Positions 14,238-19,667 of a stretch of DNA of 64,000 bases are shown one piece after another. This DNA comes from Leisingera sp. ANG1. GTDB lineage: Bacteria; Pseudomonadota; Alphaproteobacteria; Rhodobacterales; Rhodobacteraceae. Location: contig NZ_AFCF02000014.1 in NCBI RefSeq assembly GCF_000203975.2, positions 62,001 through 126,000 on the forward strand, written 5' to 3'. The translations under genes were made by a program, and so were the position numbers. Within the stretch, counting starts at the first letter, position 1. Every line of letters starts with the position of its first letter. The notes below the pieces were generated by a model, which made no database searches, was not told the DNA's origin, and saw only the letters and a list, made by a program, of their open reading frames with translations.

Positions 14238-14627
14238 ATGAACAACCCGCGGAAAGTCCTGCTCGTCGAAAATGACGAATTCACGCGATACATGATGCGA
14301 GAGATCATTGTGGCGCTTGGGGTTGACGTTGAGATTGCCGAAGACGGTCAGGCCAGCATCGACATGCTCAGCAGCGCGCCGAACGAGTATGGCCTGGTGC
14401 TGATGGATCTGCACATGCCGCGGCTGTCGGGGATTGAGGCGACACAGCAAATCCGGGAAGCTCCGATGGATCCTCCCAGCAGCGTGCCTATCATCGCCGT
14501 GACTGCTGATGCTGCCTATCACGATGATACGATCGTCAAGGACTTGGGCATGAACGGGTTTGCACCAAAGCCAGTGACACCCGGCCAGATTCTGAACCTA
14601 ATCGACAAATTTTGCGCTGCTGCATAG
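14238..14627 (+). CDS. Single-domain response regulator (CheY-like receiver)
   Basis: A stand-alone receiver domain of 129 residues with no output domain. The phosphoacceptor aspartate is in GLVLMDLHMPRLSGIEATQQ (about residue 55), the acidic pocket is KVLLVENDEF, the conserved threonine is in PIIAVTADA and the lysine in GFAPKPVTPGQI. Receivers of this LVLMDLHMP type usually take phosphate from hybrid or PAS-type kinases. It precedes the CheB/CheR hybrid and the histidine kinase by 79 bp and about 3.5 kb, and probably serves them. No chemoreceptor, CheA or CheW gene is nearby. Confidence 0.9.
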   Translation: MNNPRKVLLVENDEFTRYMMREIIVALGVDVEIAEDGQASIDMLSSAPNEYGLVLMDLHMPRLSGIEATQQIREAPMDPPSSVPIIAVTADAAYHDDTIVKDLGMNGFAPKPVTPGQILNLIDKFCAAA

Positions 14628-14706: not shown

Positions 14707-15258
14707 ATGGAAGACTTAGAAAAGCGCATGTCCACCGAAACGTCAGCAGCCTCACCGGAAAATGATAGCGCGGATGCCTCAGCTGAAGACAGCGGCCTTC
14801 ACGTGGTCGGTGTGGCCGCTTCGGCGGGCGGGCTGGAAGCGCTTTCGCAACTGGTGCAGCACCTCCCGCAATCCGCCAACGCAATCTACGTGATTGCGCA
14901 GCATATGTCGCCAACCCATAAAAGCGTGCTGACATCTTTGCTCGCCCGCGAAACCTCCCTGCCAGTAGAAGAGCTGGGCCGGGAAACCGACCCCGTGCCG
15001 GGAACCATCTACATTACCCCGCCAGATACTGATGTGATGCTTGAGGGTGGAAAGCTGCGCTTGCGCAACCCTGCAGGGCACCCGGCATCCCCGAAGCCGT
15101 CCGCTGACCGGCTGTTCAAGAGCATTGCTCAAGAGTGCGGAGAAAACTGTGTAGGTATCGTGCTGTCGGGCACTGGAAGCGACGGCAGCTATGGCGTGCA
15201 AGCGATCCGTGAATGCGGCGGAATCACCATCGCCCAGGATCCCAGCTCCGCGAAATAG
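14707..15258 (+). CDS. CheB-type methylesterase domain, 5' fragment of a CheB/CheR hybrid cut by an in-frame amber codon
   Basis: 183 residues: a short acidic leader, then a CheB methylesterase domain. The full catalytic triad is visible: serine in GVAASAGGLEAL (about 38), histidine in VIAQHMSPTHKS (about 64) and aspartate in LSGTGSDGSYGVQ (about 158). Translation stops at TAG (15256-15258) exactly where CheB proteins have the conserved (A/E)Y-DGMP-SA segment: the frame reads QDPSSAK-stop-DGMPASAIETG without any shift. So a TAT/TAC tyrosine codon appears to have become TAG. The missing tail is the last strand and helix of CheB. Either a pseudogene fragment, a truncated but partly active domain, or a read-through product. 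Confidence 0.85.
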   Translation: MEDLEKRMSTETSAASPENDSADASAEDSGLHVVGVAASAGGLEALSQLVQHLPQSANAIYVIAQHMSPTHKSVLTSLLARETSLPVEELGRETDPVPGTIYITPPDTDVMLEGGKLRLRNPAGHPASPKPSADRLFKSIAQECGENCVGIVLSGTGSDGSYGVQAIRECGGITIAQDPSSAK

Positions 15259-15264
15259 GATGGC

Positions 15265-18003
15265 ATGCCAGCTTCGGCGATTGAAACCGGTTGTATCGAT
15301 CTGACCCTGACACCGGGGCAAATCGGCGACCATTTCGAGAAAATTCTGACCCGGCCGCGCGATCTGGCATTGCTGCGCCCCGAAACGGATGAACCCAGCA
15401 AGCTCAGCGAACTGTTCGGCATCCTTCTAGCCCGCACCCAGGTCGACTTTGCCAACTATAAGGAAAACACACTGAACCGCCGCATTGCCCGGCGGATGAC
15501 GGCACTGGGTATCGAAGACTACGACGGCTATGTCGATTATTGCAGGTCAAACGTGGACGAAGTCGACGCGCTGCACCGCGATTTGCTGATTTCGGTGACC
15601 CGGTTCTTCCGCGATCCTGAACAGTTCCGGAAATTGAATGAACAGCTGGAAAAACAGCTGGCAAACAGCGGCCCGGGCCCCGTTCGGGTGTGGGTCGCGG
15701 GATGTGCGACCGGCGAAGAGGCTTATTCCATCGCGATCCTTATCGCCGAACTGCTCGGCGGGCTCCACGCGCTGACCAAGACCAATGTTCAGATCTTCGC
15801 CACGGATATCGACCAGAATGCCATCGAAGTTGCGCGAAAGGGGATTTACCCCATTTCAGCAGCGCAGGACATTCCGCCCCAATATCTGAAGGAATACTTC
15901 ACCGTCGGCGAAAACGACATCTCGGTCCGCCAGGAGCTTCGAAATGTGACACTGTTTTCGCAGCACAATGTGTTCCAGGACCCGCCCTTCATCAATCTCA
16001 ACCTGGTCACCATCCGTAACGTCCTGATCTATTTTAACCTGGCACTGCAGGAACGTGTGCTGACCCGCCTGCACTATTCCCTGGCCTCGGGCGGGCTGCT
16101 GTTTCTGGGCACTTCGGAAACAGTGGGCGAAATGGGCATCTACTTCGAAGCCCGCCAGGGGGCCGACAAGATTTTTGGCAAACGCCGCGGCATTTCCAGG
16201 GAACTGACCGTATTACCCAGCACGCCGGGCAGCTCCTATCTGCGGTCGCAGAGCATGCGGCGGTCAGCGGCGCAAACGGCGGCCGATCAGGCTGCGCAGG
16301 CCGACCTTTCGCTTGCCCGGGCAGTTGCGCCGAATGGCGTTATTTGCACCCGTAACGGCGACATTATCGAAATCCTCGGGGATATCAGCGTCTACAGCGA
16401 AATCCGGGCCGGCATGTCGACATCGCTGAACGTCAGGATGCTGATCGACCCGCTGCGCACCGAGGCCGCCAGCCTGATTGCGGTGGCCACCCGCACCGAA
16501 GAACGGCGGGACGGGCGCTGGCATAAAGCCTCCTTGCCCAATGGCAACCGCGTCCAGCTGCAGGCCTTCCCCTTTATCAACCACAAGGGCGGCGAACTGC
16601 ATTGCCTGCTGGCGATCAATTCCAAGTTCGAGGAGGAAAAGGAGCTGAACTTCAGCGAAATTTCCGACCGGGAACAGCGGGACTATGTCGAGCGGATGGA
16701 GCTGGAAATCCGCTCCACCCAGGAGGCGCTGCAGCAGACGATCGAGGAACTTCAGACCGCCAACGAGGAGCTGCAATCCTCAAACGAGGAGCTGCAGTCC
16801 ACCAACGAGGAGTTCCAGGCCACAAATGAAGAACTGGAAACCTCCAACGAGGAGCTGCAATCCACCAATGAAGAGCTGCTGACCGTCAACGAGGAATTGC
16901 AGATCAGCTCAGCAGAGCGCCAGGCGCTGGCCTCCGAGCTGGAAGCGATGCTGGTCTCTTCGCCTTATGCCATTGCGCTGGCGGATCAGGCGCTGATCAT
17001 CCGGCGGCTGTCGCGCGTCGCGCAGGAGGTTTTTGGCATTGGCGAGCTTCCTCCGACCGGCCTGCACCTCAGCCATTGCAACCTGCCCAATGGCTTCCCG
17101 GCACTCGCGCCGATTGCCAACACTGTGCTGCGGCTGCAGGAAACGCGCCGCATTCCCGTCCTGTCAGGCAGCGACTACTACACCCTGATCCTGTCACCCG
17201 TTCTGGACATGCACCAAAGGCTCATCGGCATCTCTATTACTGTGTCCCGGTTCGACAACGAACCTTTCAATGATGTCCTCCGGCAGATCAGCAAAGTAAC
17301 CAGGGTCGGGTTCTGGACGCAGAACCTGCAATCCAACGATACCTACGTCTCGCCAGAGGTGCATGCCATTCTGGGGATGGATGACACCGCAGCCGGCCTG
17401 AGCCTTGACACGATTCTGGCGCGCGCCCACCCCGAAGACCGTGCAAGCTTGCAGTTGCAGCTTGACCCTCTGTTCAAGGACGGCGGCTCCTTCGAATTTG
17501 ATGCACGCTTCTTCGATGACAGCGGAAACACCCTGAACATCGGGGGCAGCCTGATGGTTTTCCAGGATTCCCATGGCGAAAACATCCAGTTGATCGGCGT
17601 GTGCTGGGACAAGGCAAAGTTTGACGAGCGCGACCTGATGCTGGGCTGCAGCGCAGCGGTGCAGAATCATTTCGCCGTTGGCATTTTCTCCTTTGATGTG
17701 GTCAACAACGTGCCGTCCTGGAACCCACCGATGTACGATCTTCTGGGGTATGCTCAGGGAAAGCACGTCCCGTCGGTGGAAATGATGCTGGAGCGCATCC
17801 ACCCTGAGGACCGGGATTTTGCGAAGGACGGGCTGCAGGATGTACTGACGATGGGACAGCCGTTCCACTACCCGCTGCGCCTGCAGACCAGCGATGGCAG
17901 CTACGCCGCAGCAGAACTGTTTGCACAAGCCCGGAGCGGCGATGCAGACCGCATAACCCATGTCTTTGGCGGCCTGCAGCTTTACCGGCGTGAACCGGAG
18001 TAA
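15265..18003 (+). CDS. CheR methyltransferase / coiled coil / PAS protein, 3' part of the interrupted CheB/CheR hybrid
   Basis: 912 residues from the first ATG after the amber codon, in the same frame as the CheB fragment. The first 25 residues are the stranded CheB tail. Then a CheR methyltransferase domain: SVTRFFRDPEQF (about 110), SAM motif VWVAGCATGEEAYSIA (about 142), IFATDIDQNAIEVARKGIYP, and TIRNVLIYFN. A coiled coil of eight near-identical heptads (NEELQST type) covers about residues 493-548. Two or three PAS/PAC-like domains fill the rest (e.g. ISKVTRVGFWTQNLQ, ILARAHPEDRASL, MLERIHPEDRDFAKDG). No kinase domain follows. AGGA lies 4 nt before the ATG, so independent re-initiation is possible. 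Non-chemotactic CheB/R hybrids of this design are signalling proteins of unclear substrate. Confidence 0.88.
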   Translation: MPASAIETGCIDLTLTPGQIGDHFEKILTRPRDLALLRPETDEPSKLSELFGILLARTQVDFANYKENTLNRRIARRMTALGIEDYDGYVDYCRSNVDEVDALHRDLLISVTRFFRDPEQFRKLNEQLEKQLANSGPGPVRVWVAGCATGEEAYSIAILIAELLGGLHALTKTNVQIFATDIDQNAIEVARKGIYPISAAQDIPPQYLKEYFTVGENDISVRQELRNVTLFSQHNVFQDPPFINLNLVTIRNVLIYFNLALQERVLTRLHYSLASGGLLFLGTSETVGEMGIYFEARQGADKIFGKRRGISRELTVLPSTPGSSYLRSQSMRRSAAQTAADQAAQADLSLARAVAPNGVICTRNGDIIEILGDISVYSEIRAGMSTSLNVRMLIDPLRTEAASLIAVATRTEERRDGRWHKASLPNGNRVQLQAFPFINHKGGELHCLLAINSKFEEEKELNFSEISDREQRDYVERMELEIRSTQEALQQTIEELQTANEELQSSNEELQSTNEEFQATNEELETSNEELQSTNEELLTVNEELQISSAERQALASELEAMLVSSPYAIALADQALIIRRLSRVAQEVFGIGELPPTGLHLSHCNLPNGFPALAPIANTVLRLQETRRIPVLSGSDYYTLILSPVLDMHQRLIGISITVSRFDNEPFNDVLRQISKVTRVGFWTQNLQSNDTYVSPEVHAILGMDDTAAGLSLDTILARAHPEDRASLQLQLDPLFKDGGSFEFDARFFDDSGNTLNIGGSLMVFQDSHGENIQLIGVCWDKAKFDERDLMLGCSAAVQNHFAVGIFSFDVVNNVPSWNPPMYDLLGYAQGKHVPSVEMMLERIHPEDRDFAKDGLQDVLTMGQPFHYPLRLQTSDGSYAAAELFAQARSGDADRITHVFGGLQLYRREPE
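16741..16908 (+). repeat. Eight 21-nt tandem repeats encoding a heptad coiled coil
   Basis: Each 21-nt unit encodes a heptad of the form (N/I)EELQxx; NEELQSS and NEELQST are typical. The array joins the CheR and PAS parts and probably forms a long dimeric signalling helix. Such NEELQ arrays are known from CheB/CheR hybrid proteins. Confidence 0.9.
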
Positions 18004-18117: not shown

Positions 18118-19266
18118 GTGACTGCATTGATGCCGGATGGGAACAACCTGGACGCTGAGGTCTTGGGAAACGCCTTTTTCTGGTCTCCCTATGCGTCCTT
18201 TGTCCTCGATTGGAATGGCCGCATTCTTGCGTGCAACCGCAGGGCCGAACGCAGTTTCGCACCGGGTTGCGAACCCGGCAGCGGTGCGCTTCAAGGCACA
18301 TGCATCAGCAGCCTGACCCTGCTGGATCCGGACCGGGTGATTGCAAGGCTCAGGCAAGGTACAGCGCATGGCGCAACGACTTTGCCCATGAATGCGAACA
18401 TCCGCCCGTCCACGGCGCCAGAAACGGATTTCCGCGTTTCGCTGTTAAAGTCTGACGCCAAGGGTGAGCGGCTGATCATGCTGACCCATGATCAGCTGCG
18501 AGTCACCGCTGAGTCGTTCCGGCAAATGAATGACCTGCGCAGCAAGCTCAACGATGAGCTGCGCAGCGCCAAGGAAGCCAACCTGAAACTGCAAGAAACC
18601 TTGCTGTCGATGGAGGCCTTTGCCCACGCCGCCTCTCATGATCTGCGAACACCGATCAGCACCCTGAATGGCGCCTTGCACTACTTCTCGCAGCACTATG
18701 CCGCCGGTCTGCCGGAGACAGCCCAGGAATTCCTGAAGCACATGAGCCGGGCCACCAGCCAGATGGACCGGCTGACAACGGAGCTTTTGGAACATTCGGT
18801 TTCAACGTCCGCCCGGATCAACATTCAGGACATTTCAATTCAGGACGCAGTATCAGAGGCCTGCGCAGGCCTTGCCCAGGAGCTGCAAGCCTGCGGTGGC
18901 CAAATCAGCGTGTCAGGCAGCGGTTTCCGGCTGCATGCCGACCCTACCCTGCTGCACCTCGTCCTCACCAACCTGTTGACCAACGCAATCAAGTACCGGC
19001 ACCCTGGGCGCCCTCTGGAAATCAAAATCAGTCAATCTTCCGCAGGGCGGGACAATTGGGAACTGTCAGTTTCGGACAATGGAACCGGCTTTGACCCCAA
19101 AGACAAATTCTTGATCCTCCAGCCGTTTCATCGCGCACACCGTGAAATCGAAGGCAGCGGCATCGGACTGTCGACTTGTGCAGAGATTTGCCGCCGCCAC
19201 AACTGGCAGTTCACAGCCGATGCAGACCAAGGCAAAGGCGCCATCTTTACAATTGCCTGCAGCTAG
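18118..19266 (+). CDS. PAS-domain sensor histidine kinase
   Basis: A soluble kinase of about 382 residues. The N-terminal PAS-like part (SPYASFVLDWNGRILACNRR) is followed by a short helical linker, a HisKA domain with the phospho-accepting histidine in AFAHAASHDLRTPISTLNGA (about residue 176), and a HATPase domain with N box VLTNLLTNAIKYRHPGR (about 283), G1 box SDNGTGFDP (about 319) and G2 box GSGIGLSTC (about 347). No membrane segment. GTG at 18118 and ATG at 18130 are both possible starts; an AGGCGG precedes the ATG. Similar kinases are often fused to the C terminus of CheB/CheR/PAS hybrids; here the kinase is a separate gene 114 bp downstream. Confidence 0.9.
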   Translation: MTALMPDGNNLDAEVLGNAFFWSPYASFVLDWNGRILACNRRAERSFAPGCEPGSGALQGTCISSLTLLDPDRVIARLRQGTAHGATTLPMNANIRPSTAPETDFRVSLLKSDAKGERLIMLTHDQLRVTAESFRQMNDLRSKLNDELRSAKEANLKLQETLLSMEAFAHAASHDLRTPISTLNGALHYFSQHYAAGLPETAQEFLKHMSRATSQMDRLTTELLEHSVSTSARINIQDISIQDAVSEACAGLAQELQACGGQISVSGSGFRLHADPTLLHLVLTNLLTNAIKYRHPGRPLEIKISQSSAGRDNWELSVSDNGTGFDPKDKFLILQPFHRAHREIEGSGIGLSTCAEICRRHNWQFTADADQGKGAIFTIACS

Positions 19267-19280
19267 GTCCCGGAACCTGC

Positions 19281-19667
19281 TCAGCTTGCTTCTGCGGTAA
19301 CACTCTGGCCGGTTACATAGTCGACCATGCTTACAAGGTCCGGCAGGTTAACCGGCTTGTGCAGCACCCACCGGATATTGCGGCTCAGCCCAAACAGTTC
19401 GCCGCCGGTGAACAGCCGGCTGCCGGTGATGTAGACCACCGGAATATCGGGGCGCATGAGCGCGGCATAATCCGCCACTGGCAAGGACATTTCCTCCCCG
19501 ATCTTCAGATCAAGGATCAAAATACCGGTTTCGATGCCGGAAAGAGCTGAGATGGCTTCGGAACAACTGGCAACGGCGGTGACATCATATCCGGCGTCCC
19601 GCAAAGCCATCTCGAACGTGAACCGGACACCCTTGTCGTCTTCCAGAAGCAGGACCTTGGCTGTCAT
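19281..19667 (-). CDS. Single-domain response regulator
   Basis: A 128-residue receiver with no output domain. The acidic pocket is VLLLEDDKGVRFTFEMAL, the phosphoacceptor aspartate is in GILILDLKIGEEM (about residue 53), the threonine in VVYITGSRLF and the lysine in VLHKPVNLPDL. It resembles the C-terminal receivers found on hybrid kinases. It is convergent with the histidine kinase, 14 bp apart, so the two receivers of this island lie on opposite strands and are expressed separately. Confidence 0.9.
   Translation of the reverse strand: MTAKVLLLEDDKGVRFTFEMALRDAGYDVTAVASCSEAISALSGIETGILILDLKIGEEMSLPVADYAALMRPDIPVVYITGSRLFTGGELFGLSRNIRWVLHKPVNLPDLVSMVDYVTGQSVTAEAS

Follow-up and report, generated by a model that had tools for sequence, protein, structure and literature searches.

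A gene for a CheB-CheR-PAS hybrid in the marine Leisingera sp. ANG1 is interrupted by an in-frame TAG codon, and the cause is probably a real and recent nonsense mutation that cut the protein near the end of CheB, with the CheR-PAS part possibly still made and CheB activity presumably lost. The gene lies in a stretch of 64,000 nucleotides of contig NZ_AFCF02000014.1, here called the window, and coordinates are those of the window. The ANG1 genome comprises 4.59 Mb in 20 contigs and is rated 100% complete. The first-pass annotation had described the frame from 14707 to 18003 as open except for this codon, and the open reading frame (ORF) list and translation bear this out, as TAG (15256–15258) is the sole in-frame stop between the ATG at 14707 and the TAA at 18001–18003 and divides the frame into ORFs of 183 and 912 codons. 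The residues past the TAG keep the CheB pattern (DGMPASAIETGC...). ANG1 thus has no single-chain CheB-CheR-PAS frame.

The 183 aa CheB methylesterase fragment (14707–15258, forward strand) ends at the TAG and matches Pfam PF01339 with an E value of 1.3e-45 and 155.6 bits (curated cut-off 24). Only model positions 1–146 of 174 are covered, compared with 1–173 of 174 in the intact hybrid L005, so that the stop removes 28 model positions and the cut falls inside the domain. The Ser (alignment column 7), the His (column 34) and the GSD motif with the Asp (columns counted from 0), which we take to be the catalytic residues, are all present before the TAG, in agreement with the earlier statement that the triad is complete in the first part. 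A predicted structure of the intact CheB domain has a mean pLDDT of 65 and falls below 50 over residues 150–191, a region that includes the cut site (residue 178); it was useless for placing the cut, and Pfam and PDB alignments were therefore used instead. Without the last 28 of its 174 profile positions, the fragment is presumably inactive or unstable.

The CheR and PAS domains downstream of the TAG are all present. The CheR-PAS part (15265–18003, forward strand, 912 aa from the ATG at 15265) is defined by its ORF and Pfam profile matches, and includes the all-alpha N-terminal domain of CheR (PF03705, residues 49–96, 15409–15552, E 4.7e-13), the SAM-binding methyltransferase domain of CheR (PF01739, residues 111–298, 15595–16158, E 1.3e-49) and, as the better of two stretches, a C-terminal PAS fold (PF08447, residues 818–896, 17716–17952, E 2e-20). 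In L005 the CheB profile match ends at residue 203 and the methionine matching the ATG at 15265 is residue 181, so the 912 aa part begins with approximately 22 residues that belong to the end of the CheB domain. Upstream and in the same orientation is a gene for a stand-alone response-regulator receiver protein of 129 aa (14238–14627, forward strand, PF00072, E 2.1e-20). Downstream are a histidine kinase of 382 aa counted from its first start codon, a GTG (18118–19266, forward strand, HisKA and HATPase_c), and a further receiver protein of 128 aa (19281–19667, reverse strand, PF00072, E 4.3e-08), a candidate member of the unit. A promoter and terminator scan gave no more sites than were found in shuffled sequences, and a search of the plasmid collection gave no match.

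The orthologue set consisted of 28 distinct sequences, namely 24 named loci (L064–L087) plus G018, G020, G005 and ANG1; eight of the named loci duplicate genomes that were searched, and 30 more distant loci (L088–L117, ≤45% identity) were left out. The named relatives at 75–86% identity are Leisingera records, with two exceptions, a bin from a metagenome labelled Rhodobacteraceae and an oddly titled record. The last, JAHVJD010000003.1 (L067), is titled Nocardioides marinus and bears a Leisingera-type gene; the title looks wrong. Alignment of orthologous hybrids, a check suggested with the first description of the gene, gave a CheB-to-CheR frame that is continuous in 25 of the 28 and a tyrosine codon (TAC or TAT) at the stop column in 26. 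The exceptions are ANG1 itself, G002 (strain DP2N28-1), which keeps the tyrosine and has a TAA upstream, and G019 (strain SS27), in which the column is deleted and a TAA is also found upstream. The uninterrupted frame and the tyrosine are not due to chance, and a single base change from TAT or TAC to TAG, with no frameshift, accounts for the stop as had been proposed. The earlier view that a tyrosine normally stands here holds for the orthologues but not for CheB generally, as the column aligns with Val in enteric CheB (1chd); the residue is constant in the aligned members of this CheB-CheR-PAS subfamily rather than across the family. The TAG is absent from the orthologues, as expected if the ANG1 gene were a pseudogene. 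A wider survey of 394 genomes (E ≤ 1e-60) matched 92 genomes in 108 rows, of which three have an internal stop, the ANG1 gene, G207 (at the C-terminal end) and G242 (inside CheR). No further stop in a CheB half was listed outside Leisingera in these 108 rows, excepting the CheB halves of G374, G282 and G263, whose rows begin past query residue 100.

To date the stop, changes were counted in a 15-row alignment at those columns where all other intact orthologues agree, with G002, G019 and ANG1 kept out of the reference set and the CheR-PAS columns counted only up to the frameshift of G019. ANG1 differs at none of the 91 CheB columns that precede the stop, at none of the 20 in the remaining CheB tail and at 2 of 360 in CheR-PAS. 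The corresponding CheB counts are 0–2 of 91–93 in nine intact Leisingera and 0–4 of 91–95 in three outgroups. In a codon branch model the ANG1-branch CheB omega is 0.052 against a background of 0.064 (p 0.6) and omega = 1 is rejected (p 8e-6), so the relaxed constraint expected of a pseudogene is not seen in this half. These omega values are rough because synonymous sites are near saturation (pS 0.44–0.72 in CheB pairs), and the column counts agree with them. An undamaged CheB half indicates that the stop is either recent or not real, and the recent nonsense mutation that had been raised among several options is favoured by it. The CheR-PAS omega values of ANG1 (0.060), G002 (0.071) and G019 (0.086) do not differ from the background of 0.066, and neutrality is rejected in each. 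If the stop is recent, the low value in ANG1 reflects mostly the time before the stop, and not present selection or synthesis.

The ATG at 15265 lies 6 nt past the TAG, and an AGGA resembling a Shine-Dalgarno motif (15257–15260, forward strand) overlaps the stop codon and ends 4 nt before this ATG, the spacing originally reported. Its predicted pairing of -6.4 kcal/mol is the strongest of 27, with -0.5 to -4.1 kcal/mol in the 26 other orthologues; as approximately 15% of sampled positions within the gene pair as well as this, the value is suggestive only. In PMC10666635, a stop-start distance of -8 to +10 nt is given as predictive of termination-reinitiation and a distance of about 20 nt as almost abolishing it, and the +6 nt of ANG1 falls within the predictive range. 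In PMC12548453, a Shine-Dalgarno motif is described as aiding coupling to a varying degree. Ribosomes terminating at the TAG would then restart at the ATG at 15265, aided by the AGGA, and the CheR-PAS part is possibly still made from this start. An out-of-frame ATG 1 nt past the stop, which opens an ORF of 14 codons (15260–15304, forward strand), could compete for re-initiation. Under this mechanism an evolutionarily recent nonsense mutation would truncate CheB near the domain end. The methylesterase would be lost, but the methyltransferase-sensor part would keep its place next to the response regulator and the histidine kinase.

Two other Leisingera, G002 and G019, have broken CheB halves. 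In G002, a TAA stands where the Tyr of the GSDGSY motif is normally encoded, upstream of the TAG column of ANG1. In G019, a TAA is likewise found five codons past the shared SGT, the five codons differ from those of G002 and a deletion follows; this register was placed by hand, and the program alignment puts the TAA in a different column. The catalytic His is replaced by Gln in both. Changed invariant columns number 20/90 in CheB, 1/20 in the tail and 3/360 in CheR-PAS for G002, and 25/70, 7/20 (six of them in a badly aligned junction) and 4/360 for G019. The GSDGSY tyrosine codon is TAT in ANG1 and G002 has TAC at the codon that is TAG in ANG1, and as each keeps a tyrosine codon at the stop site of the other, these two breaks are separate. 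The next in-frame start (ATG, GTG or TTG considered) follows the TAA by 72 nt in G002 and by 99 nt, as a TTG, in G019. Judged by the part of PMC10666635 cited above, these distances are too great for re-initiation, and CheR-PAS of G002 and G019 would need independent initiation.

A shared origin of the TAA in G002 and G019 has mixed support. All CheB positions, and positions 1 and 2 alone, group G002 with G019 (support 99), and the two share 13 of 70 changed columns (hypergeometric p 3e-5), 6 of these with an identical residue. However, third codon positions of CheB do not group them, and the TAA could be convergent. A single origin was not adopted, given the ungrouped third positions and the hand-placed register in G019, and at least two CheB breaks, not three, are therefore counted in the genus. 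The CheR-PAS part of G019, unlike its CheB, groups with G010 (support 100), a sign of recombination close to the boundary between the two. The G019 orthologue (L014, G019:C4:95701-98411) also has a frameshift near the CheR-PAS end, within the C-terminal PAS stretch, so that this half might be decaying as well and the precedent is a weak one. By its sequence G002 is the clean precedent, with a changed CheB and a full-length conserved CheR-PAS.

Plain decay is not the whole story of these CheB remnants. The joint CheB omega of G002, G019 and their stem is 0.24, which is above background (p 3e-7) and also below 1 (p 1e-11), so they are not simply neutral. A branch model with separate classes gave 0.066 for G002, 0.36 for G019 and an unstable 12 for the tiny stem, and rejected omega = 1 for G002 (p 9e-7) and G019 (p 0.003). 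Taken at face value this model would imply continuing constraint on the broken CheB, against simple decay, and the argument is not rested on it. Pairwise dN/dS of the G002 CheB against ANG1 and three intact relatives is 0.16–0.18. The G002 CheB (L004, G002:C2:513059-513664) is either in late decay or a remnant partly still under constraint.

A close CheR-PAS orthologue was found in 12 of 21 Leisingera genomes (ANG1 and 11 others at 75–86% identity). None was found in 8 of the 21, and G004 has only a relic with several stops (L015, G004:C7:1138560-1139158) and is also missing the histidine kinase. The kinase is present in exactly the same 12 genomes and missing in the same nine, indicating that the unit is often missing in its entirety. 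A separate CheB homologue, assigned as CheB by homology, was found in all 21 genomes (open frames of 300–446 aa, 31–32% identity). The CheB half appears, from the patterns of conservation, to be dispensable in this protein within the group, which together with the separate homologue could explain why its loss is tolerated.

The ANG1 gene might instead be a fresh pseudogene, with CheB abolished, little or no CheR-PAS made and the gene heading for loss, the state of those Leisingera that are without it. The eight genomes with no close orthologue, the relic in G004 and the matching absences of the kinase are consistent with such a course, which is possible but not likely given that in G002 the CheR-PAS frame has stayed conserved and full-length although CheB is broken and that a plausible start with Shine-Dalgarno-like pairing lies just past the ANG1 stop. 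A sequencing or assembly error in a gene that is intact in the cell would account for an ANG1 CheB that is otherwise perfectly conserved at the counted columns and under normal constraint; a single base suffices, and the comparison set contains one genome per species. Single-base substitution errors are rare in draft consensus, and the change here is a substitution rather than an indel in a genome of 20 contigs rated 100% complete. An error is accordingly judged improbable, and we infer that the stop is real.

Two further alternatives would preserve CheB activity. The 183 aa and 912 aa products could reassemble as a split but working enzyme, as the three catalytic positions are all in the fragment and the 912 aa part opens with the missing end of CheB, none of whose 20 invariant columns is changed; closely spaced gene pairs are also enriched for complex subunits according to PMC10666635. 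Set against this, the domain itself is cut, with 28 profile positions still to come, a split combined with an otherwise intact CheB is seen only in ANG1 among the 28 orthologues, and recency explains the conservation equally well. This makes reassembly very improbable. G002 and G019 show that a state like the stable split gene put forward in the first-pass annotation can occur, but it is not shown for ANG1, as its CheB has not diverged. Amber read-through or suppression, also put forward, would yield a full-length protein and fits the continuing constraint on the ANG1-branch CheB, but is not supported by the tRNAs found and unlikely in the extreme. A covariance search (E ≤ 0.001) found 49 tRNA genes in the ANG1 genome, and ARAGORN assigned a CTA anticodon to none of the 49. 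In an ARAGORN run over 2.0 of the 4.59 Mb (approximately 43%), one tRNA-Tyr was found with anticodon GTA; by whole-genome BLAST it is single-copy, and it is identical in the two congeners searched. With this coverage, and with one weak covariance match below the cut-off, a divergent suppressor keeps a slight probability. TAG also ends 7 of the 45 ORFs of the window, the CheB fragment and six others, in a greedy list that includes some spurious ORFs. The tRNA-Tyr (L235:8924-9007, G000:C19:207924-208007) was itself missed by the Rfam covariance search in both ANG1 and G018, and by two anticodon-arm patterns.

The preferred reading is an ordinary event in a little-studied hybrid, namely a nonsense mutation that is most likely both real and recent. 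From the sequence, CheB function would be lost in ANG1 and CheR-PAS synthesis would continue. CheB and CheR act oppositely on receptor methylation, and these hybrids hold the two opposing activities on one chain with PAS sensors, beside a histidine kinase. That CheB has been broken at least twice in the genus while CheR-PAS and the kinase persist is a hint as to which of the halves is the functional one, and the genus offers natural mutants in which this could be tested. The breaks in two congeners and the start site close behind the stop add interest, and ANG1 may show a gene at the moment of fission in a single step, with the translational coupling supplied by the same change. A more speculative extension is that Leisingera repeatedly make a methylesterase-less CheR-PAS sensor by nonsense mutation at CheB tyrosine codons, with selection keeping the product. 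The ANG1 mutation would then have ended CheB and strengthened the ribosome-binding site of CheR-PAS at once, a one-step fission at its start, and G002 would be a later stage, its CheB remnant changed, without the catalytic His and perhaps newly constrained. We consider this doubtful.

The intact CheB-CheR-PAS hybrids of Leisingera, Tateyamaria and Epibacterium share the domain order of the ANG1 gene (PF01339, PF03705, PF01739, PAS) and are encoded by one continuous frame, whereas that of ANG1 is split by the TAG. L005 (also L064, Leisingera sp. ANG-M7, 1092 aa) is 85% identical over CheR-PAS and 84% over the whole frame. G002 and G019 resemble ANG1 in having an in-frame stop in the CheB half and a conserved CheR-PAS, but differ in that the stop is a TAA further upstream, the catalytic His is lost and CheB is much changed. 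The enteric CheB structures (PDB 1chd, 1a2o and 6ymz) contain the homologous domain and align over most of the ANG1 CheB part, the match to 1a2o beginning at residue 156. In enteric CheB, a separate protein that ends after this domain, a receiver domain precedes it, and the catalytic positions are those of the ANG1 CheB part. The cheBR fusion of Geobacter bremensis, like the ANG1 relatives, has CheB and CheR on one chain, and a split is not mentioned in the part of PMC8396549 available. ANG1 is similar to translationally coupled gene pairs as described in PMC10666635 and PMC12548453, with a stop-start distance of 6 nt and a Shine-Dalgarno-like motif over the stop, but is unlike them in that the arrangement arose inside a single gene and that the coupling is predicted. 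The best 10–20 literature matches on CheB/CheR fusions, gene fission and translational coupling, as far as their accessible text goes, contained no split of this hybrid, and those listed on CheB/CheR fusions, kinases and PAS, within the same limits, gave no account of its function; CheB or CheR with Leisingera gave no literature match. Two of the Leisingera genomes, G001 and G005 (L024 and L025), hold a second, distant CheB-CheR-PAS paralogue with approximately 32% identity and an open frame of 1150 codons.
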